A stretch of 64,000 nucleotides of DNA, taken from assembly GCF_020085105.1 (NCBI RefSeq), contig NC_058052.1, positions 15,576,233-15,640,232 of the forward strand, given 5' to 3'. The position numbers and the translations under genes are program-made. Source of the stretch: Siniperca chuatsi. Taxonomy: Eukaryota; Chordata; Actinopteri; Centrarchiformes; Sinipercidae. Of the stretch, positions 18,801 through 55,078 are shown piece by piece; the first letter of the stretch is position 1; every line of letters begins with the position of its first letter. The notes under the pieces were generated by a model, which saw only the letters and a program-made list of their open reading frames with translations, ran no database searches and had not been told where the DNA came from.

Positions 18801-21672
18801 CTGCTGGCTGTATTCTTGATAAATCAGTTGTTTGGCTGATAAAATATCAGGAAATTGTGAAAAATACCCATCACAATTTCTAAAGTCCAAGGCGACATCT
18901 TCAGATTCCTTGTTTTATTCCAACATCAGTCCAAATCCCAAAGATATTCAGATCAGACAAAGACGAGCAGCAAATCCTCACAATTGAGAAGCTGGAATGA
19001 GGTAATGTTGTGCATTTTTGCTTAAAAAAAACTTAAATGATTAATAGATTATCAGAATATTTGCAGATTTATTTTCTGTGGATCGACTAATCGATTAATC
19101 ATTTCAGCTCTAGTATGAATACATTAGTTGAAACGAAAAGGTGCCAGGAGAACAAAGCATATGGTTGTTGTTTGTGCATGTGTGTGTTTTTCCATTACTA
19201 AGTATAGTGAGTAACATATTGGCAGAACTACAGACCCCCACAGTGCCAGTTTGATGTAGTTACAGTAAATGGAGAGGCGATGCAGTAGAAGAAATAGGAT
19301 TTTGTAATAGCCACTTTACTATGGAAGTGTACCAGAGTAAAATAGAATTCCCACTGTGAACAAAACACTGCTTTTTGAACAAAAACCTGTGGGAAAATGT
19401 GTAAGTCCTGGCTGCGTTTTCTCTCCCTTCTTCACTGCCAGCTCTGGAGATGTCACACGTAAATCTAATAAAAGACTGATATTGCTGCGTGAGGTTTTCA
19501 TATTGAATTGTCTGGAAATCTCACTTTGTTACTTCAAGGATTAGCCTACTGCACAAGAATGTTCAGTATGTACTACCCGGGTCAATGGACAAGTGGCTTA
19601 TAGGCCAAAAAACTAAATAACTTCTAGGCTATTGCTCTAATGATCCCTAAGAATTATGTGGAGCAAAGGGACATTGTTATTGTTAACACAAGGCTTTAAC
19701 CATTTAGCATTAGCCAATAAACGCAATTCTGTGTCATCTAGTCTAGTCCTTGGAGATGTGTTTTCTTGCTTTGGTTAAAGCTCCATTGAAACTTTTATCT
19801 GTTCTGATCAGTACATCTGAGCTCTGTGTGTGTGTGTGTGGATCCTGCAGTGGGAGCTCTGGTCACATGCTCCTGAGCAGCTCTTTTGTGTATTGTTTCT
19901 TAGAGTTCTTGTGACCACCAGGGAAAAGGAGGCGTTCTGTTGTGTTGCTTTCTGCTGTCGTTTACTACATGTCACCCTCTCTTTTTCACTTATTCTTCTT
20001 TGGCTCCTTACTAAAAGAAATCATAAGAGGCTTTGAACAAAGATTTACACAACAAAGAATAACCTGACCCAACAGCTTGATGTAGAAGCTGTCTGATGTT
20101 GCCCCCAGCTGATCGTTTCCACGTGGTGGTTTCTTTTTCAATAAGTGTTTCTGTCAGCTGCTAAACTGCTGATTTTGTGTATTATCTTTGTCTTTACCCA
20201 TGTTAATGTAACCCCTCTTTCTCCTCGTGTTATTATTTATATGACAGGTGGATAATGCCAAAGTTCTCCACTATGTCGGAGCAGGCATTGCCTTCCCCAC
20301 CAGTATGCTGTTCGTGTGCCTGCAGTCAGCGCTGACTTACCGTCTGGCCAAGACCCAGGGGGAGTACAACGTGGCCCACCTCCGGCTCTGCATGACCCTG
20401 CTGGCCTTGGTAGCCTTGGTGCTCAGTATCCTCTCCAGCTACTAACAGATGGCAGCATTCGAGGCTGTCGAGTGCTTTAGAATAGAGCGTAGTACTGCCA
20501 GCTTGATTAAGGACAGAGACTTACCCTCCACATTATATCACAACAGCCATTTCTCTCCAGTATTCAATGTCAAATACAGCTATACATGAGAGTAGATTCA
20601 AAGAGTGATAGAAATATTGAGGACAGGGTAGAGGACATGCTGTCAAACAGGTCTGTTTTACATGTCACTCAGTGCCGCGAAAACTGATAGACATGGTTTA
20701 AAGGAATATTTTGACATTTTGGGAAATACGGTTATTTGTTTTCTTGCTGACAGTTAGATGAGAAGATTGACTCCACTCTCATGTCTGAATGGGAAATATG
20801 AAGCTGCAGCTGGTTACCTTAGCTTAGCATAAAGACTGGAAACAGCTAGTCTGGCTGAGTAACAAAATCAACCTACCAGCACCTCTAAAGCTCACAATTC
20901 TTTAAAATTGTACTGTACTGTGTATATATGCCTAATGCTCTTTACCAAGGCGACTAAAACTGGTAAATGCTACTTCTTTGTTTTATTGTTTTGCCTTAGA
21001 CAGTGTTGAGACTGACAGTAGCACTACTTCAAAAACACAGCCCCCCCTGAAATTCTGTAAAGTGTTTTGGCATCTTATAAGCCTTTAAACTCATGGATAT
21101 ATCGTATTGGACTTCCTGGTTCAGGTTTCTTCTTCTCACTTGTACCTTAAGCAATATGCCCACATTAACACAGCCCCATATTGACTTTTTGAAGCAGTGC
21201 TATTTTTGTTCTGAGCACCAATTGTTTCTTTTCATAATAAGAAAAGTCTCAGCTCCTTCCTCTGAGTATTGAAATAAGTGGATTGATACTTGAATTTTGC
21301 AGTCAGGCCAATGTTAGGCTGCCTACACACGAACATCTCAGAATGGTGAGCACAGGCTTTCACACTGCTTCGCTGTTGTTGTCCTTAATCATGTTTTCAG
21401 GTGGTGTGTTTTTCTGTCAGGAGAGCTTCGTCCTGCAACACGCATCAGCCATCTTTGAATGGGTGTTCTGCGTCATCATCATGCTGTTTTACGGGACATT
21501 TGCTTTTGAGTTTGCCAGCATGTCAGGAGATACTATGGCAGTGCTGGCTAGAGGAGGGGCCCTGGGACCTGCTGGGAGAGAACACAAGGTGGACGCACTG
21601 GGAGCACTGGGAGGGCCCGGTCCACACACACAGTCACATCCACACCAACCTGAAAACATGTCCATACTGTAG
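169..21672 (+). CDS. tmem150a: Transmembrane protein 150A (Frag1/DRAM/Sfk1 family), 7 coding exons
   Basis: Coding exons: 169-233, 7468-7515, 8194-8280, 9538-9605, 14898-15025, 20248-20425 and 21401-21672. All have GT/AG boundaries and phases that join cleanly to give 281 aa (human TMEM150A is about 271). The start is the ATG of MSLWMILPVSLPVL, matching the family N-terminus. About six hydrophobic segments are visible (roughly residues 5-25, 78-96, 112-130, 138-158, 175-197 and 208-230). The first luminal loop carries a cysteine-rich stretch (CPVDNW, CCTLDNVPLISKCG, PPESC) and an N-Q-S sequon at N41. The conserved VGNFQVDNAKVLHYVGAG and FYGTFAFEF signatures identify TMEM150A. The family (yeast Sfk1 relatives) acts at the plasma membrane with the PI4KIIIalpha/EFR3/TTC7 complex to tune phosphatidylinositol phosphate levels. 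The C-tail is Gly/His-rich and poorly conserved, as expected. Non-coding upstream exons are probably outside the window. Confidence 0.92.
2907..3432. mobile_element. MITE-like element with perfect 15-bp terminal inverted repeats
   Basis: The left end reads TTAAAGGTGGGGTAT (2907-2921) and the right end is its exact reverse complement (3418-3432), enclosing 526 bp with no coding potential. The outermost TTAA/TA may be the target-site duplication, so the true element may be 2-4 bp shorter at each end. This is typical of a non-autonomous DNA transposon; the superfamily cannot be fixed from sequence alone. Confidence 0.75.
4861..5236. repeat. Dispersed palindromic repeat rich in CGATAT motifs
   Basis: Contains GTGATACTGGATTTTTGATG, GGAAGTTAAAAAAACCCGATA and, at the far end, ATATCTGCCGATATCG in the opposite sense, so the two halves are roughly inverted. 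A second copy lies near 11514-11680. The repetition is visible by eye; the family name is not known to me. Confidence 0.5.
5311..6614. mobile_element. 1.3-kb non-autonomous DNA transposon with terminal inverted repeats
   Basis: The left end is TTAAAGGTGCTATTGATAAC. The right end (about 6593-6614) is the reverse complement with a few mismatches (ATGTTATCAATATAACCT then TTAA). Both ends sit at TTAA, the same as the shorter element at 2907-3432, suggesting a TTAA or TA target. No transposase frame is visible, so it is non-autonomous. Confidence 0.65.
8479..8519. repeat. (GT)n microsatellite
   Basis: About 20 uninterrupted GT units in tmem150a intron 4, with a (CA)n tract nearby at 8609-8630. 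Other short GT/CA tracts occur at 4011-4030, 4225-4250, 9634-9657, 10583-10612 and 16033-16053. They generate spurious long open frames. Confidence 0.95.
9728..9915 (+). repeat. CGATTAATCG-type dispersed repeat, 5' portion
   Basis: Begins with GGGCTTCAACTAACGATTAT and continues through TCGATTAATCGTTTTGTCTA and AATGTCCAAGAGGCCAAGG. It matches the same family at 18763-19113. Lies in tmem150a intron 5. Confidence 0.7.
11514..11680. repeat. Second copy of the CGATAT-rich dispersed repeat
   Basis: Shares GGCCGATACTGGATTCTTAAG, GGGAGTTAAAAAAAAAACCGA and GCAACAATTTTGATA with the unit at 4861-5236. It lies in tmem150a intron 5. Confidence 0.5.
15295..15565 (-). repeat. CGATTAATCG-type dispersed repeat, inverted copy
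   Basis: Reads in the opposite sense to 18763-19113: TTAATGTGAGAATTTGTTGC, CTTTTTGTGATCTTACG, TGTCACCTTGGG and TTTATAGACCTAACGATTAA occur in order. Lies in tmem150a intron 6. Confidence 0.6.
15737..15815. repeat. Compound (TC)n(AC)n microsatellite
   Basis: About 24 bp of TC repeat directly followed by about 55 bp of AC repeat, in tmem150a intron 6. Confidence 0.95.
18763..19113 (+). mobile_element. Near-complete CGATTAATCG-type palindromic element
   Basis: About 350 bp starting GGTTGCATCTAACAATTATT and ending GACTAATCGATTAATCATTT then CAGCTCTA. The ends are inverted relatives of each other, and the middle carries AGCAAATCCTCACAATTGAG. At least six partial copies occur in this window (9.7, 15.3, 34.5, 44.8, 50.6 and 52.1 kb). 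I recognise this as a common teleost non-autonomous DNA element; the superfamily is not certain. Confidence 0.65.
20698..20895 (+). repeat. Common teleost interspersed repeat (TTTAAAGGAATATTTTGACA)
   Basis: Contains the recognisable strings TTTTGGGAAATACGGTTAT, GTTAGATGAGAAGATTGA, TTAGCATAAAGACTGGAAAC and CCTACCAGCACCTCTAAAGC, which recur throughout fish genomes. It lies in the last intron of tmem150a, between exons at 20248-20425 and 21401-21672. Confidence 0.65.
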
Positions 21673-41100: not shown

Positions 41101-41322
41101 TTAGAAAGACTGTAATACAAACTTTTCTAATATTCTTCTCTCCTTATGTCTGTAAATGAATGTGAACAAACCATTAGAAACAGCTCTCAATATCAGGGAA
41201 AAAGCATCCACTAATTAACTACATGTGGCCTCAAGACCATAGAGTTGAATCAACTTCTGCTTGACAAGTAAAACTGCTCATTTCAAGCTTCATAAAAAAG
41301 GAGTTTTTTTTTTAGGGCTGAT

Positions 41323-41332
41323 GTATTGAATT
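41323..41332. repeat. 5' target-site duplication of the LINE
   Basis: GTATTGAATT, repeated exactly at 44659-44668 on the other side of the element. Confidence 0.85.
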
Positions 41333-44300
41333 CCCCTCCTTGAACCGCCACCTTAACGTGGTGGAGGGGTTTGAGTACCCGAATGACCCTGGGAGCTATG
41401 TTGCCTGGGGCTGTATGCCCCTGGTAGGGTCACCCATGGCAAACAGGTCCAGGGTGACGGGTCAGACCAAGAGCGGTTCAGAAGACCCTTATGGATTATT
41501 TAAAATCAAGGCCAGTTACGTCGCCCGGATTGGCGCTACCGGGGCCCCACCCTGGAGCCAGGCCTGGGGTGGGTGTCCGACGGCGAGCGCCTGGTGGCCG
41601 GTGACCCGGCCGGGCACAGCCCGAAGGAGCGACGTGGGGCCGTCCTCCCGTGGACCCACCACCCGCAGGAGGATCCGTAAGGGGCCGGTGCAGAGAGATC
41701 TGGGCGGCAGTCGAAGGCAGGGGCTTCGGCGACCAGATCTCCGGACACAGAAACTGGCTCTAGGGACATGGAATGTCACTTCGCTGGGGGGGAAGGAGCC
41801 TGAGCTTGTGCGGGAGGTTGAGCGTTACCGGCTAGATATAGTCGGCCTCGCCTCCACGCACAGCCTGGGCTCTGGAACCCGTCTCCTCGAGAGGGGCTGG
41901 ACGCTCCATTTCTCTGGCGTTGCCGGCGGGGAGAGGCGGCGGGCTGGTGTGGGCCTGCTCATAGCCCCACAGCTCAGCCGTCACGTGTTGGAGTTTACCC
42001 CAGCGAACGAGAGGGTCGCGTCCCTCCGCCTCCGGGTGGGGGACAGGTCTCTCACTGTTGTGGCGGCCTACGGGCCAAACAGCAGTGCAGAGTACCAGGC
42101 CTTCTTGGAGTCCCTGGGAGGGGTACTAGACAGTGCACCACCCGGGACTCCGTTGTTCTACTGGGGACTTCAACGCCCACGTGGGCAACGACAGTGACAC
42201 CTGGAGAGGGGTAATCGGAAGGAACGGCCCCTGATCTGAACCCGAGCGGTGTTCAGTTGTTGGACTTCTGTGCTAGTTACAGTTTGTCCATAACTAACAC
42301 CATGTTCAAGCACAAGGGTGTCCATCAGTGCACGTGGCACCAGGACACCCTAGGCCGGAGGTCGATGATCGACTTTGTTGTCGTATCATCTGACCTCCGC
42401 CGCGTGTCTTGGACACTCGGGTGAAGAGAGGGGCGGAGCTGTCAACCGATCACCACCTGGTGGTGAGTTGGATCCGCTGGCGGGGAGGAAGCCGGACAGA
42501 CTTGGCAGGCCCAAGCGTATCGTGAGGGTCTGCTGGGAACGCCTGGCGGGGCCTCTGTCAGCAGGGTGTACAACTCACACCTCCGGGAGAGCTTCTCCCA
42601 GATCCCGGGAGGTTGGGGACATTGAGTCCGAGTGGACCATGTTTTCCACCTCCATTGTCGATGCGGCGGCTCGTAGCTGTGGTCGCAAGGTTTCTGGTGC
42701 CTGTCGCGCGGCAATCCCCGAACACGGTGGTGGACGCCGGAAGTAAGGGATGCCGTCAGGCTGAAGAAGGAGTCCTATCGGGCCTTGTTGGCTCGTGGGA
42801 CTCCCGAGGCAGCTGACAGGTACCGGCAGGCTAAGCGTGCTGCAGCCCGTGCGGTCACAGAGGCAAAAACTCAGGACTGGGAGAGGTTCGGAGAGGCCAT
42901 GGAGGAGGACTATCGGTCGGCCTCAAAGAAATTCTGGCAAACCGTCCGACGGCTCAGGAGGGGGAAGCAGTGCTTCACCAACACCTTGTACGGTGCGGGT
43001 GGAGAGCTGTTGACCTCGACTGGGGATGTTGTCGGACGGTGGAAGGAATACTTTGAGGATCTCCTCAATCCCGCTGTCACGCCTTCCGAAGAGGAAGCGG
43101 AGGCTGGGGACCGGAGGCGGACTCATCCATCACCCTGGCCGAAGTCACTGAGGTTGTTGGCAAGCTCCTTGGTGGCAAGGCTTCGGGGTGGATGAGATCC
43201 GTCCTGAGTATCTTAAGTCTCTGGATGTTGTGGGACTGTCTTGGCTGACACGTCTCTGCAACATCGCGTGGCGGTCTGGGACAGTGCCTCTGGACTGGCA
43301 GACCGGGTGGTGGTCCTCTGTATAAGAAGGGGGACCGGAGGGTGTGTTCCAATCACAGAGGGATCACACTTCTCAGCCTCCCGGTAAGGTCTATTCCAGG
43401 GTACTGGAGAGGAGAATTCGTCCGATAGTCGAACCTCGGATTCAGGAGGAGCAGAGTGGTTTTCGTCCCGGTCGTGGAACACTGGACCAGCTCTATACTC
43501 TCCATCGGGTGCTCGAGGGTTCATGGGAGTTTGCCCAACCAGTCCACATGTGCTTTGTGGATCTGGAGAAGGCATTCGACCGTGTGCCCGGGGCGCTTTG
43601 TGGGGAGTGCTCTGGGAGTATGGGGTCCGGGGCCCTTTGCTAAGGGCTGTCCGGTCCCTGTATAACCGAGCAGGAGCTGTGTTCGCATTGCCGGCAGTAA
43701 GTCAGACCTGTTCCCGGTGCATGTTGGACTCCGCCAGGGCTGCCCTTTGTCACCGGTTCTGTTCATAATTTATATGGACAGAATTTCTAGGCGCAGTCAG
43801 GGGCCGGAGGGTGTCCGGTTTGGGAACCACAGGATCTCATCTCTGCTGTTTGCAGATGATGTCGTTCTGATGGCTTCTTCAAACCAGGACCTGCAGCATG
43901 CACTGGGACGGTTTGCAGCCGAGTGTGAAGCAGCTGGGATGAGAATCAGCTCTTCCAAATCTGAGGCCATGGTTCTTGACCGGAAAAAGGTGGTTTGCTC
44001 TCTTCGCGTGGGTGGGGAGTCCTTGCCCCAAGTGGAGGAGTTTAAGTATCTCGGGTCTTGTTCACGAGTGAGGGACGGATGGAGCGTGAGATTGACAGGC
44101 GGATCGGTGCAGCGCCTGCAGTGATGCGGGCGCTGTATCGGACCGTTGTGGTAAAGAAGGAGCTGAGTCGAAAGACAAAGCTCTCGATTTACCGGTCAAT
44201 CTACGCCCCTGCCCTCACCTATGGTCATGAGCTTTGGGTAGTGACCGAAAGGACAAGATCGCGGATACAAGCGGCCGAAATGGGCTTCCTCCGCCGAGTG

Positions 44301-44658
44301 GCTGGGCGCTCCCTTAGAGATAGGGTGAGGAGCTCAGTCACACGGGGAGCTCGAGTAGAGCCGCTGCTCCTCCACGCCGAGAGGAGCCAGCTGAGGTGGC
44401 TAGGGCATCTGATCCGGATGCCTCCTGGACGCCCCCCTCGGGAGGTGTTCTGGGCATGTCCCACCGGGAGGCGGCCCCGGGGAAGACCCAGGACACGCTG
44501 GAGGGACTATGTCTCTCGGCTGGCCTGGGAACGCCTCGGGATCCCCCCGGAGGAGCTGGAGGAAGTGTCTGGGGCGAAGGAAGTCTGGGAGTCCCTGCTT
44601 AGACTGCTGCCCCCGCGACCCGGCCCCGGATAAGCGGAAGAAGATGGATGGATGGATG
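41333..44658 (+). mobile_element. RTE-clade non-LTR retrotransposon, full length but frame-broken
   Basis: A 3326-bp element flanked by a perfect 10-bp duplication (GTATTGAATT) and ending in a short (GGAT)n tail at about 44645-44658. It has no LTR. A GC-rich leader begins CCCCTCCTTGAACCGCCACC. An apurinic endonuclease-like domain follows (about 41755-42200: LALGTWNVTSL, LDIVGL, VVAAYGPN), then reverse transcriptase (about 43150-44050: GFRPGRGTLDQ, FVDLEKAFD, catalytic FADD at 43849-43860). The C-terminal region (44058-44633) has RWLGHLIRM and ends at TAA. The short GGAT-type tail and domain order fit the RTE/Rex3-like group of fish LINEs. The full 5' end and intact duplication suggest a fairly recent insertion. 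GC content is far above the surroundings. Confidence 0.88.
41755..44633 (+). pseudogene. LINE endonuclease/reverse transcriptase ORF, disrupted by frameshifts
   Basis: The polyprotein is spread over several frames. The first frame runs 41340-42197 but loses register near 42160, where the conserved D-F-N-A endonuclease motif should occur. The RT region changes frame near 43190, again in the linker after AFDRVPG at about 43590-43610, and again at about 44055, where the frame passes from 43717-44124 to 44058-44633. The copy therefore cannot encode a continuous protein. Residues that remain visible include the RT FADD box. Confidence 0.8.
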
Positions 44659-46215: not shown

Positions 46216-47436
46216 ATGGTGACTGTGACTATGCTCCTGAAGGCGGTGAGCCTGTTTGTTGCAGAGTTCATCAGCTCCATCACAGACTGGTTCCAGACCA
46301 AACCAGCATGGGCCAACCTAGAAGTGCTGGAGGACACAGAACTGAAGACCACCGGAGGCGGTGAGTCAGAAAACAGAAACAAGCTGACATGCTGCACTTG
46401 GGCACTGCGAAGTTACATTCTTTTTAGTATTAAATTCCCTGTCTTTACAAATAACACCAATACATAAAGTTTTCGTGTCTGTATGACAAACTCTTAACTG
46501 GCTAAAACAGCGAGTGCATCATTCATAAGTGCCAAGATATTTAAAGGACTCCTTCATCTGAAGAATATGAGTCATACCTTATGAAGGAGAGTCAGTGACA
46601 TTTAGATTCAATAACGCTCCTCTGTCTCTTTCAGTCCATGAGCGACACAAGGCCAAATCTCTGTGGGAGAAGACTGGAGCTGTGGTCATGGTTGTACGGC
46701 GACCTGGATGATTATTGTGCAGAGAGGTATGAAATGACATGCCTGTACGTGTATCAGTAATGACAACTCTGCAGTCACCTAACTAGTAAATCTTCATTCA
46801 TGCTAACTGTTTCTCTCTGCCCTTCCCTCTCTAGGAGGCTGCCGAGCTGTCCTCTCTCAAGTCCCAGCTGCAGGACCTTGAAGTCCCTCTGTTTGCCGTG
46901 GTCAAAGAAAACCTTGGCAAGGAGCTGGACTGCTTCAAGAAGTACTTCTCTGGGAAGGTCTACGTGGATCAGAAGGTCTACTTTTGCAAAACCCTCCCCT
47001 ACACATGGCTTTAAGATATTAAGTGAAACATGGAGGGTTACAGAATTCAAGATAATAAGCTGCTTTTATATTATTCTCATAGAGAAATTTCTACGGCCCT
47101 CAATTGAGGTGGATGTTTCTCTCCATGTTTCTGCGTATTGGCGTGTGGAGGAACCTCTGGCGGGCCTACCGGAAGGGCTTCGGGGGAAACCTAAGAGGTG
47201 AAGGACTTGTCCTGGGTGGAGTCTTCGTCATTGGGCCTGGAGATCAGGTAGGCTGCAACTGACAGAATAAAAAAATTCTGACAAGCTTATCTGGACGTTT
47301 ACATGGGTTTTGAATGTGTTATTTTTCCCCCCAGGGTATTCTACTGGAGCACCGCGAGAAGGAGTTTGGGGATAAAGTGAATACGCTGGCAGTACTCAGA
47401 ACAGCCCGCAAAATGCGAGATGACATAGCAAGATAG
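46216..47436 (+). CDS. Selenoprotein U / peroxiredoxin-like 2A, tandem copy 1 (Sec-containing)
   Basis: Coding exons 46216-46360, 46635-46726, 46835-46975, 47083-47247 and 47335-47436 give 214 aa if the TGA at 46709-46711 is read as selenocysteine (codon 74). The family is a thioredoxin-fold, redox-active protein (human PRXL2A/FAM213A has Cys at this position). Signatures: LWEKTGAVVMVVRRPGU, the U-L-L-C redox pair (U74, C77), CREEAAELSSLK, LGGVFVIGPGDQ and GILLEHREKEFGDKVN. Exon lengths 145/92/141/165 equal those of copy 2, showing origin by duplication. The N-terminus (MVTVTMLLKAVSLFVAEFIS) is hydrophobic but unlike the GMWS anchor of PRXL2A. A downstream SECIS candidate (47731-47799) supports decoding. 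A polyadenylation signal AATAAA is at 47898-47903. Confidence 0.92.
46709..46711 (+). other. Selenocysteine codon (TGA), copy 1
   Basis: In-frame TGA between CGG-CGA-CCT-GGA and TTA-TTG-TGC. It aligns exactly with the cysteine of the human PRXL2A PGCFLC motif. The conserved exon continues in frame beyond it and a SECIS candidate lies about 1 kb downstream. Confidence 0.9.
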
Positions 47437-47730
47437 ACCTCAAAATGAATGGACTGTTAGTGTGGCATTATGTAATAATGGCTGTAGCATGTTTCCATTT
47501 GCACGGTCTGCATTCTTTAAACCTAAGCCAGGAGCTTTCTCTACCCAACAACATCTAACACTGTACTCTACTCATATTGCATTTGTTCCATTTGTAAATC
47601 TAATGTCATTCTGGATGCATTCAGTGTTTGCTGATATGTTATGCAATGTCACAACTCTGTGGTTAAAATGTGGCACTTTAACAGTTTATTGACCAACTGT
47701 CTGCATTTCTGGTCTTGGTTGTGTGATGGT

Positions 47731-47799
47731 CTTTTGTGTGTTTTAATGAAGATTTGTTTCTAAACTCTGCTGAGAGGACAGCTCTGATGCCAGCACGCA
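47731..47799 (+). promoter_or_regulatory. SECIS element candidate (form II), copy 1 3' UTR
   Basis: 310 nt after the stop. Core quartet ATGA at 47746-47749 faces TGAT at 47785-47788. Twelve nt separate the ATGA from AAA (47762-47764), which precedes a CTC/GAG mini-stem, the form II layout. Helix II pairs GATTTGTTT with GGACAGCTC (one mismatch, G-U pairs allowed). Helix I pairs TTTGTGTGTT-type sequence with AGCACGCAAA over about 10 bp. Confidence 0.88.
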
Positions 47800-47897
47800 A
47801 ATCCAACACTTTAAACAAGACAGTCTTGGCCTGACATGAGGGAGATTGAACTGTTGGGAGTGATTAAACGCATTTTGTGTTTGTCATCTGATAAACC

Positions 47898-47903
47898 AAT
47901 AAA
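47898..47903 (+). terminator. Polyadenylation signal of SelU copy 1
   Basis: AATAAA about 100 nt after the SECIS candidate, giving a 3' UTR of roughly 480 nt. Confidence 0.6.
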
Positions 47904-48039
47904 CCAGTCATGCTTACAGAAAGAGTATCTGCCTATTTACCTGCTCATGTGTCTTGTTTTGGCTTGTCTTGCGACTTACAAACATTCTTGTCAAAGTTAA
48001 AATCTTTCTTTGCCAGCCATCTTGCTCGATTAGTTTCCC

Positions 48040-48129
48040 TGCTCAGTGGAATGTTTAGTGCGCCTGCGCCGAGATCTGTTTACAAAACGCTTGGTGAGAG
48101 CGACGCTGTGTGTTGCTTCATTGATTCTG
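48040..48129 (+). promoter_or_regulatory. Candidate promoter / first non-coding exon of SelU copy 2
   Basis: GTGCGCCTGCGCC at about 48059-48070 resembles an NRF1 site. It is followed by an exon-like stretch ending in a strong donor (TCTG then GTGAGT at 48130). The likely splice target is the acceptor ending at 50998 of the copy-2 first coding exon. Inferred from motifs only. Confidence 0.4.
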
Positions 48130-48589
48130 GTGAGTGTGCCTTTTTTAAAAACGTCTCCTTTAACTTTATATAACAGTGGCAGCATCTAAACAACAGGTGC
48201 ACCTGCTAGCTCTAGGCCCAGACTCAATAAACTAAAGACTAAACCTTTAGCCGAGCTAACAGATAATTTATCGACCGTTGCTACGACACTGTCGTCACTG
48301 TCTCTGTGCCGTCTGTGACTAGCAACAGTAACTTTGTAGGACACTGAAAGTATGTATTTATTATGTAATCATCACTCTAATATCTCAAAAATGCTAAAAT
48401 ATCCTAGTCCTACTCGGTTACAGTTTTAAGTGTAGCCTGTAGAGCCATTAGGTAATGTCATTGATTAGACATTGACAGTAACAACAAGGTCATTATCTGT
48501 ATAATTTGCTGTCTTCCTGCGGGCGGACAGGGCGGTTACTGGTTAAGATATTTCTGCCACCTCATCTTTACATGTAGGTTAAGTGTCAG

Positions 48590-49108
48590 CAGTGGAAGAA
48601 GTATTCAGAGCCTTTACTTAAGAAAAAAGTAGCAATGTCACAGGGTAAAAAAAAAATGAATGTGTTATTTTTTTTAAATGTAGGCTATTTATTCATTTTA
48701 TAATACAAAATATTAAACCAGAACAAACAGGAAATAATATATCACACAACTACACACAGTTGCCAGACTAATAATAAACAATAATAAAAATAACAGCACA
48801 TTAATGACAGGTACAAATCAAGTTAGGTAATATATTTACCTTTTTTCAGCTATTGATAAACAGCGAGTAAAGCAAGAAATGGATCAGTACTGATGCTGTG
48901 TTGAATTGTTGCAGAAAGAGTATTACAAATTGGGGTTTTAACATCTGATAAAAAACATTTACTTTGGAAAGATGGAGAAGCTTAATTATCAAAAGTTAAA
49001 GTAAAGTTCAGTATGCAGAAGGTCATGGAGTAAAAAGTACAATATTTCCCCTTGAAGTGTAGTGGAGAAGAAGTATAAAGTAGCATAAAACGGAGTAAAA
49101 TTAAGTAA
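48590..49108. repeat. AGTACTT/AAGTAGCA-type dispersed repeat
   Basis: Contains AGTGGAAGAAGTATTCAGAG and, at the far end, AGTAAAAAGTACAATATTTC and GAAGTATAAAGTAGCATAAA. It is shared with 35640-35720 and, inverted, with 30240-30395. It separates SelU copies 1 and 2. Confidence 0.55.
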
Positions 49109-49157
49109 AAGTTACTTTACACCACTAGACATAGTGTCTAGTGGTGTAAAGTAACTT
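49109..49157. repeat. Perfect 23-bp inverted repeat with a 3-nt spacer
   Basis: The arm 49109-49131 (AAGTTACTTTACACCACTAG...) and the arm 49135-49157 are exact reverse complements around TAG. The left arm continues from the AAGTAGCA-type repeat. Confidence 0.9.
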
Positions 49158-50010
49158 GTCCTAGCATCATCCAGGCATCTCATGAATATAATACAACTCT
49201 TGATTTATTAGATGTGTTCATCATTAACAAAGTATTGGGCAACACCACGTCATGTTTGCAGTACCAGTGTTGACAGCTCCTTTCACTCCTCGCTCTGCAG
49301 ACACATTCAAGGAACCTAGACTCTTCCTTGTGTTGCAGGCGTAGGCGTCTGTCCCTATTGGCTGCTGCTGTTATTTTTTTTCAGCCCTTTGTCCTCCCCA
49401 GTGATAAAGTGTCAGAACACAAATGCATTTGGCTGATTTAGTGTTTGACACTGGATGAGCTAAGTCCCGGGAGAAAAGATATTTCTTCGCATTTTGGAAA
49501 CAAGTTAGTATATAAAACAATTTTAGTTTTCAATTGGTTATAGACATAAGATAGATTTGATCCTTCTTAAACTTGAATTTCTCTGTGTAGCATATTGTAA
49601 ACTGATTTATATGTTTGTGTTTTCAGTGTAATTTATGTGTTGATGTGTTTAAACCACAAACAAGAGAGCTTAGGGTGCAAGAAAAGGAAGTTTCTTTGTA
49701 AATGGAGAACTGTTACACTCCAGTAAGATGATTAAAATCAAAACCACGCTTTGATCGTGCTTTACTTTCGGTATAACACAGTCTACAGGGTGGGTAATAA
49801 TTCTTAATAAGCAAATGTAACACCTGGCTAACAAGGTATAACATTTTGTCTGGGTAGTCTAAACATGAAGAATGATGCCTAGGTGTTTTTCTCTTAAATC
49901 TGTGAAGTCAATTGCAGGCTCCTTGAAAGTAGGGCTTGCAGTAGAGGTGGATTATACTGTCTTTGAAATGGTCTGTGGCATAGAAAGGACTTGTGTTTCT
50001 TTCTTTCAGT

Positions 50011-50423
50011 GATATCTTGAGGGTGTTTGTAGTCAGAGGGTCAGACTTTTGCCACGGTCCCGATGCTGGCTCTGTCCAGGTGTCCGACAGCTTTGAGGTG
50101 GAGACTATCCCTGCGTTGCTCTGCCCTCTCTTTGGGGAGCACTACCATGAGCAGCCAGCCCTCCACCGCAGCCAAGCCCCAGTTTCTAAGAACCCAGACT
50201 GCTCTGTTTCACCAAAGTAAAGCCAAAGCCAGCCCTGACCCAAACAAGCCCGCTTCAGGCAAGGACATATCTGACTGCATACAGTTAGCTGTTCTACCCA
50301 AACTTCAAATGTGTTGTAGAAAATGTTACAGTTCTGACCTGTGCACAGTGTTTCCCTGCTTTCTGCCCACTTTGTGCTGGAATGACTCTAGACCTTCATG
50401 ACACTGAAGAGTGACAAAATAAA
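50011..50423 (+). other. Possible unassigned exon with polyadenylation signal
   Basis: A good acceptor (TTTCTTTCTTTCAG ending at about 50009) is followed by an unusually GC-rich, non-repetitive stretch with overlapping open frames (49993-50220 and 50063-50401) and AATAAA at 50418-50423. I recognise no protein family in either frame. It lies between the likely first exon and the coding exons of SelU copy 2, so it may be an alternative terminal or 5' UTR exon. Confidence 0.25.
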
Positions 50424-50559
50424 TGAGTCATTTAATAATAATGATTTTATCATTTTTAAAATGTTTTGATAAGAGTCATGATTAAAGTTTGTAGTTTTAA
50501 CATTAACTCAGGACTGGAGTGTCATCTACTGCTGCTTGTTTGTCACCTTGGGCTTTTTT

Positions 50560-50655
50560 CCCCCACATTTTTCAGTATCTTCTGACCAAACAATTAATCA
50601 AGAAGATTAAGGCAGATTATTTGATAATGAAAATAACTGTTAGTTGCAGCCCTAC
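50560..50655 (-). repeat. CGATTAATCG-type dispersed repeat fragment
   Basis: TCTGACCAAACAATTAATCA and the end AACTGTTAGTTGCAGCCCTA match the terminal part of the family. Another small fragment is at about 52086-52125. Confidence 0.55.
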
Positions 50656-51027
50656 ATTACACTGCAAGATTTCCTAAAGAAAAAAAACTATTAAAATAAA
50701 TTAAAAAATTAATGAGGTTTAGATTAGAGTAAGGTGAGAAGAGGCTATGCTGGTAAGAAAAAAAAAGCACCACACTGACATGTTGATACAGCACTACGCT
50801 CAAACACAAGACAGAATCTGCAAGCTGGGTCTTGTTGGTCTCTTGGCCTCAGGGAGATCTGAGGTCTTTGTAAGAGAGAAAGTGTGTGTGTTTAGTCTGC
50901 AGTGCACAAGTAGCGAAAGAAATGTTCCTTTTGTATTATGACCATGTCAGACTTGTGACACATTTCTCTTCTCATGTTGCTGCCTTTTTGTGCTGCAGTG
51001 TTGTCCTCTGGGTCCGAGCTTGAGGGG

Positions 51028-52914
51028 ATGGGGATGTGGTCGTTGGGTCTGGGCGCTGTCGGAGCTGCGCTAGCCGGGATCTTCCTGGCCAACACTGATC
51101 TGTGTCTGCCTAAAGTTGCCCAGGCATCGCTCGAGCACCTTGAAGATGCCGACCTGCGCTCCACCATAGACGGTAGGCAGGCTCTCTGATTGGCTGTTTA
51201 ATAATGTCACCGACCAATAAGCCTGTCTTAACACCAGCTGTTGTTAAACCCATTAGGAGGAGAATTTGCATTACATCAGCACAAGAATCAGCCATTTTCT
51301 TTACTGCTGCATGTTTGTATGCATTGTACATGCAGTGAATGAGGTTCTGTGTGGTATTTAAGGCAAAGCTGCTTTCTTAAATCTGCTGGTATTACAGATT
51401 AGATCATTGTAAAGGTCTTTGCCGAAGCTGAAGGTCAAGTTACTGGGTTACTGTTAAGCATATTCAACATATAGATGTTCCATGTGACTATGGACATCTA
51501 GCTTTTTCTCCATTTGAAGGCTGCATCTTTTATCTTCCACACTATGGCTTTATTGAATACTTAAAGCAGTAAAACACATTAAATCCATGTGACTTTCTTT
51601 GATCGGGAACATGTCAGATTGGAGCTTTGTTTTAGAAACAGTTTCTTCTTGTTTTGTCTGCAGATGGCAAGGTCATCAAAGCAAAGAGCCTGTGGGACAC
51701 GAACGGGGCTGTGGTCATGGCCGTACGACGACCCGGATGATTTTTGTGCAGAGAGGTGATGGAGAGGGTGTTACACATAACTCAGCATATGAAATAGTGT
51801 ATGTGGGTAATATTTTCCATGATGATGATATCTCTCTCCCTCTGTGCAGGAGGCCTCTGAGCTGTCCTCTCTGAAGCCCCAGCTGGACGAGCTCGGGGTC
51901 CCTCTGGTTGCTGTGGTGAAGGAGAACGTCGGCTCAGAGATCCAGGACTTCAGACCGCACTTTGCTGGGGAGATCTACATAGATGAACAGGTTAGCAGTG
52001 GTAGATAATATCAGATCTTCCAGATCTCATCCTCATGTATCTCAGCATCACACACTGATAATGACAACATGTCCCAAAACCTGGCAACTAACGAATACTT
52101 TCATTATCAATTAATCTGCATTATTGTATTGTATTTTCTTAGGCTTCTATGATAGAAAACATTCAGACAAATAGAAATTATTCACATTTGGGAAGCTCAA
52201 GCTATTAAACAATTAATTATTAAAATGGCCAGTAAATTGTCAATTGATTAACTTTCTGTCTATTAACATAAATTTTTAATGGTCCTTTTATGGGGAATAG
52301 GCTATTAAGTAGTTATTGCTGTAAAATAAAAATAAGTCAAATATCTTGAGAACTAGATTTTAAGCGATCCTTCTGCATTACTGTATTCATCTGCCAAGGG
52401 GCAATTTGGCAAATGAGGTGATAAAGCAATTTTGGCCGTTCAAACATTAGTAAAATAAATCCATCGCATTACAGAAAATCATTACATGGAATGAAAAACG
52501 ACATCCAGCTAATCCTTTCCTACATGATACATTTCTCTTGATTGGGCTGACTAAAACCAAACTAATGTGATTGTAGAAACACTTCTACGGCCCACTGCAG
52601 AGGAAGATGGGGGGTCTGGGGTTCATTCGCCTCGGAGTGTGGCAGAACTTCATGCGGGCCTGGAGGTCCGGTTACCAGGGCAACATGAACGGCGAGGGCT
52701 TCATCCTTGGCGGAGTGTTCGTCATCGGAGCGGGAGACCAGGTAGCGTAGCAAACATCTGGACTTAATGAAAGCTTTATAAAACATGTCTGTATTTTAAT
52801 TGTGTGTTGTGTTTGCAGGGGATTCTCCTGGAACACCGTGAGAAGGAGTTTGGCAATAAGGTGGAGATCGCAGATGTTTTAGAGGCTGTTAAGAAAATTG
52901 TACCAGTGAAATAA
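51028..52914 (+). CDS. prxl2a: Selenoprotein U1 / peroxiredoxin-like 2A, tandem copy 2 (Sec-containing)
   Basis: Coding exons 51028-51172, 51664-51755, 51850-51990, 52577-52741 and 52819-52914 give 212 aa with the TGA at 51738-51740 read as selenocysteine (codon 74). The start MGMWSLGLGAVGAALAG aligns with the PRXL2A hydrophobic N-terminal anchor (GMWSIGAGALGAAA in human), making this the more orthologous copy. Other signatures: AVRRPGU then FLCRE (U74, C77), VAVVKENVGSEIQDF, FYGPLQRKMGGLGFIRLG, NGEGFILGGVFVIGAGDQ and GILLEHREKEFGNKVE. The family has a thioredoxin-like fold and antioxidant activity. The same phases and exon lengths as copy 1 show tandem duplication. The C-terminus ends KKIVPVK. 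Human carries Cys where this gene has Sec. Confidence 0.94.
51738..51740 (+). other. prxl2a: Selenocysteine codon (TGA), copy 2
   Basis: In-frame TGA between CCC-GGA and TTT-TTG-TGC at the position of the human PRXL2A redox cysteine. Coding conservation continues through three further exons, and a SECIS candidate lies downstream at 54866-54936. Confidence 0.9.
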
Positions 52915-54853: not shown

Positions 54854-54872
54854 TGTGTGTGTGTGTGTGTGT
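54854..54872. repeat. (GT)n tract abutting the copy-2 SECIS
   Basis: Nine to ten GT units immediately 5' of the SECIS core. The sequence just 3' of the core (ACAGACA) is complementary to them. Confidence 0.9.
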
Positions 54873-54936
54873 TATAATGACAACTTGACTCTAAACTCAA
54901 CACTGAGAGGAGCAGGTTTGATGCTCAAACAGACAT
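54866..54936 (+). promoter_or_regulatory. prxl2a: SECIS element candidate (form II), copy 2, displaced
   Basis: About 1.96 kb after the stop. ATGA at 54877-54880, then 12 nt, AAA at 54893-54895, a CTC/GAG mini-stem (54896-54898 with 54905-54907) and TGAT at 54919-54922. Helix II pairs AACTTG and CTCT with GGAG and CAGGTT (10 bp with one bulged A). The quartet, the spacing, AAACTC, TGAGAGG and TGATGC are shared with the copy-1 SECIS. Helix I uses the tail of the adjoining (TG)n tract. Confidence 0.88.
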
Positions 54937-55072: not shown

Positions 55073-55078
55073 AATAAA
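55073..55078 (+). terminator. prxl2a: Candidate polyadenylation signal of SelU copy 2
   Basis: AATAAA (with another at about 55086) downstream of the SECIS. It gives a 3' UTR of about 2.2 kb, of which some 1.4 kb is inserted repeat. Confidence 0.55.

Follow-up and report, generated by a model that had tools for sequence, protein, structure and literature searches.

Two neighboring genes, each interrupted by an in-frame TGA at the same codon, raise the question of whether they encode a pair of selenoproteins and, if they do, at what point in the history of fishes the pair arose. The genes are located on the forward strand of a 64,000-nucleotide stretch (hereafter, the window) of contig C11 in the Siniperca chuatsi genome assembly (C11:15576233-15640232; 719 Mb in 65 contigs), and all coordinates given below are those of the window unless another contig or locus is named. 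The analyses described here make it very probable that they comprise two head-to-tail selenocysteine (Sec)-type SelU1 selenoprotein genes of the PRXL2A type, PRXL2A being the gene formerly designated FAM213A and C10orf58.

Structure and Family of the Tandem Genes

Gene 1 (SelU1b-like; 46216-47436) comprises five coding exons, at 46216-46360 (145 nt, phase 1), 46635-46726 (92 nt), 46835-46975 (141 nt), 47083-47247 (165 nt), and 47335-47436 (102 nt, ending in a TAG stop). The coding sequence of gene 2 (SelU1a-like; 51028-52914) exhibits the same organization, with exons at 51028-51172 (145 nt, phase 1), 51664-51755 (92 nt), 51850-51990 (141 nt), 52577-52741 (165 nt), and 52819-52914 (96 nt, ending in a TAA stop), and the introns follow the GT-AG rule in 8 of 8 cases, four per gene. 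A preliminary description of this locus had proposed two adjacent genes 3.6 kb apart with common exon lengths and phases, each carrying an in-frame TGA at codon 74 within a U-x-x-C motif. Both points were borne out by the 3591 nt that separate the coding sequences, by the common 145/92/141/165 series, and by the TGA triplets found in the second exon of each gene at 46709-46711 (gene 1) and 51738-51740 (gene 2), in the contexts RRPG-U-LLC and RRPG-U-FLC, respectively. With the U read through, the predicted products measure 214 and 212 residues, and 114 of 209 aligned positions are identical between them (U read as Cys). An ordinary gene caller would presumably end both genes prematurely at the TGA.

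Both products matched the Pfam family AhpC-TSA_2 (PF13911) at scores of 67.7 and 85.0 bits, far over the cut-off of 27. A search of the PDB with gene 2 returned two entries, both of them prostamide/prostaglandin F synthase (9us9 with an E-value of 8.2e-20), and the same outcome, two entries of this same enzyme, was obtained with a related intact gene on contig C20 of this genome (described below; U typed as Cys). With either query, the U position was aligned to the first Cys of the Cys-x-x-Cys motif in 9us9. The RRPG stretch, U/C74, C77, and the REEA stretch were unchanged in all three intact copies (genes 1 and 2 and the C20 gene), and the ratio of nonsynonymous to synonymous substitution rates (dN/dS) ranged from 0.27 to 0.30 over the three pairs of intact copies by the NG86 method, with a value of ~0.30 for gene 1 against gene 2 that is rough since dS exceeds 1, and from 0.29 to 0.37 over the same pairs by the LWL85 method. 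This conservation is as expected under purifying selection.

In the mechanism that we propose for these genes, the UGA at codon 74 of each mRNA would be decoded as Sec, with a selenocysteine insertion sequence (SECIS) hairpin in a 3' untranslated region of predicted extent recruiting the Sec machinery. The resulting protein would be a thioredoxin-fold, peroxiredoxin-like redox protein in which the U-x-x-C pair serves as the active site, the redox function being predicted from the family.

SECIS-like Elements Downstream of Both Genes

One SECIS-like element was detected downstream of each gene with the Rfam model SECIS_1 (RF00031). The first is located at 47736-47798 on the plus strand (34.9 bits), ~300 nt past the stop codon of gene 1 and ahead of an AATAAA at 47898, and the second at 54867-54934 on the same strand (33.9 bits), ahead of AATAAA signals at 55073 and 55086 and 1.95 kb past the stop of gene 2, that is, 1.95 kb beyond the end coordinate of 52914 given in the preliminary description. 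Their E-values were 0.00053 and 0.00098 in a scan of 10 kb and 0.0034 and 0.0063 in a scan of the whole window. At E-values up to 1 these were the sole SECIS-like places in the window, both on the coding strand and 3' of the stops, and a SECIS_5 match (E-value 0.29) overlapped the SECIS_1 match of gene 1. Both elements carry the AUGA, apical AAA, and UGAU motifs in the SECIS_1 alignments. In pairwise comparisons of the four SECIS regions discussed in this work, those of genes 1 and 2 were the most alike, with a value of 0.67 against 0.52-0.59 in the other five pairs.

Several observations weigh against taking these elements at face value. Each falls ~1 bit or less short of the Rfam gathering score for SECIS_1 (35 bits), and at curated gathering scores Rfam gave zero matches in the window. 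The whole-window scan at E-values up to 1 produced seven rows in all, two of them SECIS; among the others, two mir-466 rows reached E-values of 9.1e-5 and 4.9e-4 (41.3 and 38.5 bits, with the cut-off at 85), two mir-3688 rows reached 0.0045 and 0.0046 with 33.6 bits against a cut-off of 84, and a SCARNA7 row had an E-value of 0.38 and 21.7 bits against a cut-off of 65. Because microRNA rows lying far below their cut-offs attain similar or better E-values, the E-values do not by themselves establish the SECIS matches. Furthermore, the folding energies were no better than those of shuffled sequences (z of -1.19 for gene 1 and -0.76 for gene 2; the SECIS of the intact C20 gene yielded -3.29), a genome-wide SECIS search in which 150 of 23198 candidates were scored listed the C20 element and neither of those in the window, and the interval from the stop of gene 2 to its element contains seven poly(A)-like signals. 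The case rests instead on the near-cut-off scores, the core motifs, and the position 3' of TGA-bearing SelU genes, by which we read both putative elements as real. A (GT)n repeat was also observed to run into the 5' arm of the gene 2 element (54857-54880), where it pairs within the predicted stem.

The pair is not attributable to chance, given the identity of 114/209, the dN/dS of ~0.30, the AhpC-TSA_2 match, and the SECIS-like element 3' of each stop. The exon structure, the U-x-x-C motif, the family match, and the SECIS-like elements likewise support the earlier proposal that Sec-type SelU1 (PRXL2A) genes stand here as a tandem pair.

A Second Pair on Contig C20

Searching the genome with gene 2 yielded 16 matches, of which nine were on C11, six on C20, and one on C2, and the search with gene 1 yielded 17, including a weak one on C17 (E-value 3.43). 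By its sequence, the gene on C2 resembles PRXL2B. Two adjacent copies were identified on C20. The first is an intact gene (locus L029, 3146-5276) with exons of 151/92/141/165/114 nt and GT-AG introns in 4 of 4 cases, a TGA at codon 76 within the same motif as in genes 1 and 2, and a SECIS at L029 5594-5655 scoring 39.3 bits, which is above the cut-off.

The second is a decayed fourth copy, located on the same strand ~1.8 kb downstream of the intact gene (L029 7117-8490; C20:5743116-5744489). Its exon 1 is shortened, exon 2 carries an 11-nt frameshifting deletion just ahead of the place of the Sec codon, exon 4 contains a TAA, and exon 5 is present; for exon 3, tblastn gave no match in the copy (best E-value 3.7, on the opposite strand). 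Behind it, a SECIS relic could be aligned with MAFFT, in which GTGA replaces ATGA and a GAG-type change replaces the apical AAA; no Rfam SECIS was found at this copy at E-values up to 1, and its fold equals that of shuffled sequences (z of 0.05). In the alignment of L029:7452-7532, the place of the Sec TGA corresponds to TGT, a Cys codon, with a gap that can be placed otherwise. A change from Sec to Cys may have preceded the decay of this copy.

Open reading frames (ORFs) from 164 kb of C11 were compared with those from 86 kb of C20, and ten matching ORFs were analyzed with Pfam; many further rows of this comparison look repeat-like. Both pairs are followed, in identical order, by PDZ-type exons and then by a Fez1 gene on the opposite strand. 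Fez1 was above the Pfam cut-off in all four ORFs tested, two per contig, and PDZ (PF00595) was above it in two of six ORFs (one per contig), below it in two, and without a match in the remaining two. By their sequences, the flanking genes are tentatively named pdzd7 and lzts2. The C11 and C20 stretches are read as one duplicated block, which would derive most simply from the teleost genome duplication.

Names and Order of Duplications

The designations used here, SelU1a for gene 2, SelU1b for gene 1, and SelU1c for the intact C20 gene, are tentative assignments made by exclusion and by partial likeness. Compared with a provisional sequence of human PRXL2A, gene 2 was the closest in exons 1 (27/57), 4 (38/55), and 5 (21/31), and the C20 gene in exons 2 (24/31) and 3 (37/47). 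Over all five exons, the counts were 137/221 for gene 2, 135/220 for the C20 gene, and 115/214 for gene 1; gene 2 and the C20 gene thus resemble this provisional human sequence to the same degree, and the designation of gene 2 as SelU1a stays tentative accordingly.

The order of duplications was addressed with a quartet drawn entirely from this genome and numbered as follows: gene 1 (1), gene 2 (2), the intact C20 gene (3), and its decayed neighbor (4). The best protein quartet was (1,3 | 2,4), with support from the RELL bootstrap (resampling of estimated log-likelihoods) of 0.869 for exons 2, 4, and 5 and of 0.860 when exon 1 was added, and the same arrangement was the best for the nucleotides of exons 2, 4, and 5 (RELL 0.926). 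Informative sites, counted in the order 13|24 : 12|34 : 14|23, were 2:2:2 in exon 2, 12:1:5 in exon 4, and 3:3:0 in exon 5, amounting to 17:6:7 over these three exons. We also evaluated 15 topologies joining the four copies with the provisional human PRXL2A, leaving out PRXL2B and exon 1 of the decayed copy. The best of them was ((1,3),human,(2,4)), with a RELL of 0.67 that depends on the provisional human sequence, and the RELL values summed to 0.84 over the three topologies uniting genes 1 and 3 and to 0.04 over the three uniting genes 1 and 2. Judged from pairwise identities, the long branches seem to be those of gene 1 and the decayed copy, and their mutual attraction would favor another tree.

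From the layout and the trees together, we consider it likely that the SelU1 tandem pair predates the teleost genome duplication; in that case, SelU1b would be no percomorph novelty. SelU1b and SelU1c would then, with the same good but incomplete confidence, be duplicates of one member of the pair, the partner of SelU1a having decayed beside SelU1c. The sequence of events would be a tandem duplication, followed by the teleost whole-genome duplication and then by the decay of one of the four copies. If this is true, the partner of SelU1a that decayed here beside SelU1c could be intact in other fishes.

Support for this order is moderate, and part of the evidence runs counter to it. The approximately unbiased (AU) test rejected no rival quartet (p of 0.095-0.103 for protein and 0.061-0.062 for nucleotides), and among the 15 topologies it rejected five at 5%, none of which belonged to the six uniting genes 1 and 3 or genes 1 and 2. 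The signal for (1,3 | 2,4) sits mostly in exon 4, and the sites of exon 1 (1:6:1, from an alignment that is unsure) and of the SECIS (2:5:2) lean toward gene 1 with gene 2, reducing the sums over all five pieces to 20:17:10. In the rival history, toward which the exon 1 and SECIS sites lean, SelU1b would have arisen by tandem duplication inside Percomorpha and the C20 pair through a tandem duplication of its own from SelU1c, their common layout being coincidental. Such a history accords with the excerpted text of PMC3316567, which assigns the origin of SelU1b to Percomorpha and that of SelU1c to the whole-genome duplication, as well as with the SECIS of genes 1 and 2 being the most alike (0.67), and the AU test does not reject it. 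It nevertheless requires two independent tandem duplications of one gene beside identical neighbors, and both the best tree and exon 4 pair the copies across contigs, by which we regard it as unlikely in comparison with a pair that preceded the genome duplication.

Alternatives to Selenocysteine Decoding

The decayed copy also offers a reference for judging whether gene 1 or gene 2 is instead a recent pseudogene in which the TGA is a plain stop. The SECIS scores slightly below the cut-off would fit such a reading, but the frames are open save for the TGA, the introns follow GT-AG in 8/8 cases, dN/dS is ~0.3, the place of the TGA is common to all three intact copies, and a SECIS-like element lies 3' of each gene. 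The true decayed copy differs, exhibiting an 11-nt deletion, an exon 3 that was not found, a TAA in exon 4, and no SECIS at E-values up to 1; a pseudogene in the window is accordingly very improbable. Least credible of all, with nothing found in its favor, is an alternative splicing that drops exon 2 and so avoids the TGA, since plain skipping of an exon of 92 nt breaks the frame and would also remove the U-x-x-C motif, which is carried there and kept in 3/3 intact copies.

Additional Features of the Locus

Gene 2 may possess an extra upstream coding exon with a second start, predicted at 50010-50258 on the plus strand as an optional exon. This candidate exhibits a pyrimidine-rich acceptor, an in-frame TAG stop at 50030, a first ATG at 50063, and a GC-AG donor, and from the ATG it comprises 65 codons plus 1 nt, ending in phase 1 and fitting the acceptor before 50999. 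Between that acceptor and the ATG at 51028, the 5' part of the following exon (50999-51027, plus strand) is open and in frame (LSSGSELEG), and it has TTG where the decayed C20 copy has ATG (MSF...). The predicted 65-residue leader contains five Arg and four Lys (nine basic residues), 11 Ser, one Asp, and no Glu, a composition that resembles a mitochondrial presequence and can be taken as a lead. A tblastn search for a counterpart of the candidate exon in 86 kb of C20 gave a best match with an E-value of 0.70.

Elsewhere in the window, the stretch at 5817-6582 matches C20:5726017-5726730 in inverted order and in several frames, at ~50-92% over short pieces; two ORFs of this stretch had no Pfam match, and it is perhaps a conserved noncoding element. 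A reverse transcriptase fragment (RVT_1, 67.5 bits) is located at 43666-44121, ~2.1 kb upstream of gene 1, and the ORFs beside it at 41322-42194 and 44046-44630 gave no match in Pfam. The ORF at 21241-21669 matched Frag1/DRAM/Sfk1 with 31.1 bits against a cut-off of 30.3.

Comparison with Known Systems

One of the relatives considered is the prostamide/prostaglandin F synthase (PRXL2B, SelU3; 9us9), which belongs to the same family by sequence and bears Cys-x-x-Cys at the place of U-x-x-C, but has Cys instead of Sec and is further removed from the tandem genes. SelU1a/PRXL2A shares the U-x-x-C motif in a peroxiredoxin-like protein, with exons 1 and 4 of gene 2 being the nearest to the provisional human sequence. 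The excerpts of PMC3316567 report that mammalian SelU1 carries Cys, in contrast to the Sec TGA found here. According to the same excerpts, fishes have SelU1a, SelU1b, and SelU1c, of which SelU1c came from the genome duplication and SelU1b from a duplication in Percomorpha, with later loss in medaka and a Cys form in stickleback. By exclusion, these additional Sec-SelU1 copies of bony fishes would correspond to gene 1 and the C20 gene. The published account differs from ours in the dating of SelU1b to Percomorpha and in the layout: within those excerpts, the word tandem is used three times, for SelW2 and GPx genes, and neither an adjacency of SelU1a and SelU1b nor a decayed fourth copy is mentioned. 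Among the matches listed in a search of the SelU1/PRXL2A literature, none described a tandem layout of fish SelU1 genes or the decayed copy.

A parallel to the C20 pair comes from the excerpted text of PMC3473315, in which a sponge SelU3 cluster (Aq.SelU3_b/Aq.SelU3_c) consists of adjacent SelU-family genes, one of them incomplete and devoid of a SECIS; these differ from the C20 pair in being SelU3 and invertebrate and in belonging to no duplicated block with a second pair. Set against these systems, the existence of multiple Sec-SelU1 genes in percomorph fishes is already known (PMC3316567, in its excerpted text). The new element is the second pair on C20, an intact Sec gene with a SECIS together with a decayed copy, beside the same PDZ and Fez1/LZTS neighbors. 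Together, the tandem arrangement and the fourth copy in its decayed state would offer a simple and testable revision of when fishes gained their extra SelU1 selenoproteins, and they present a selenoprotein gene seen in decay, its Sec site and SECIS core lost, beside its intact sisters.

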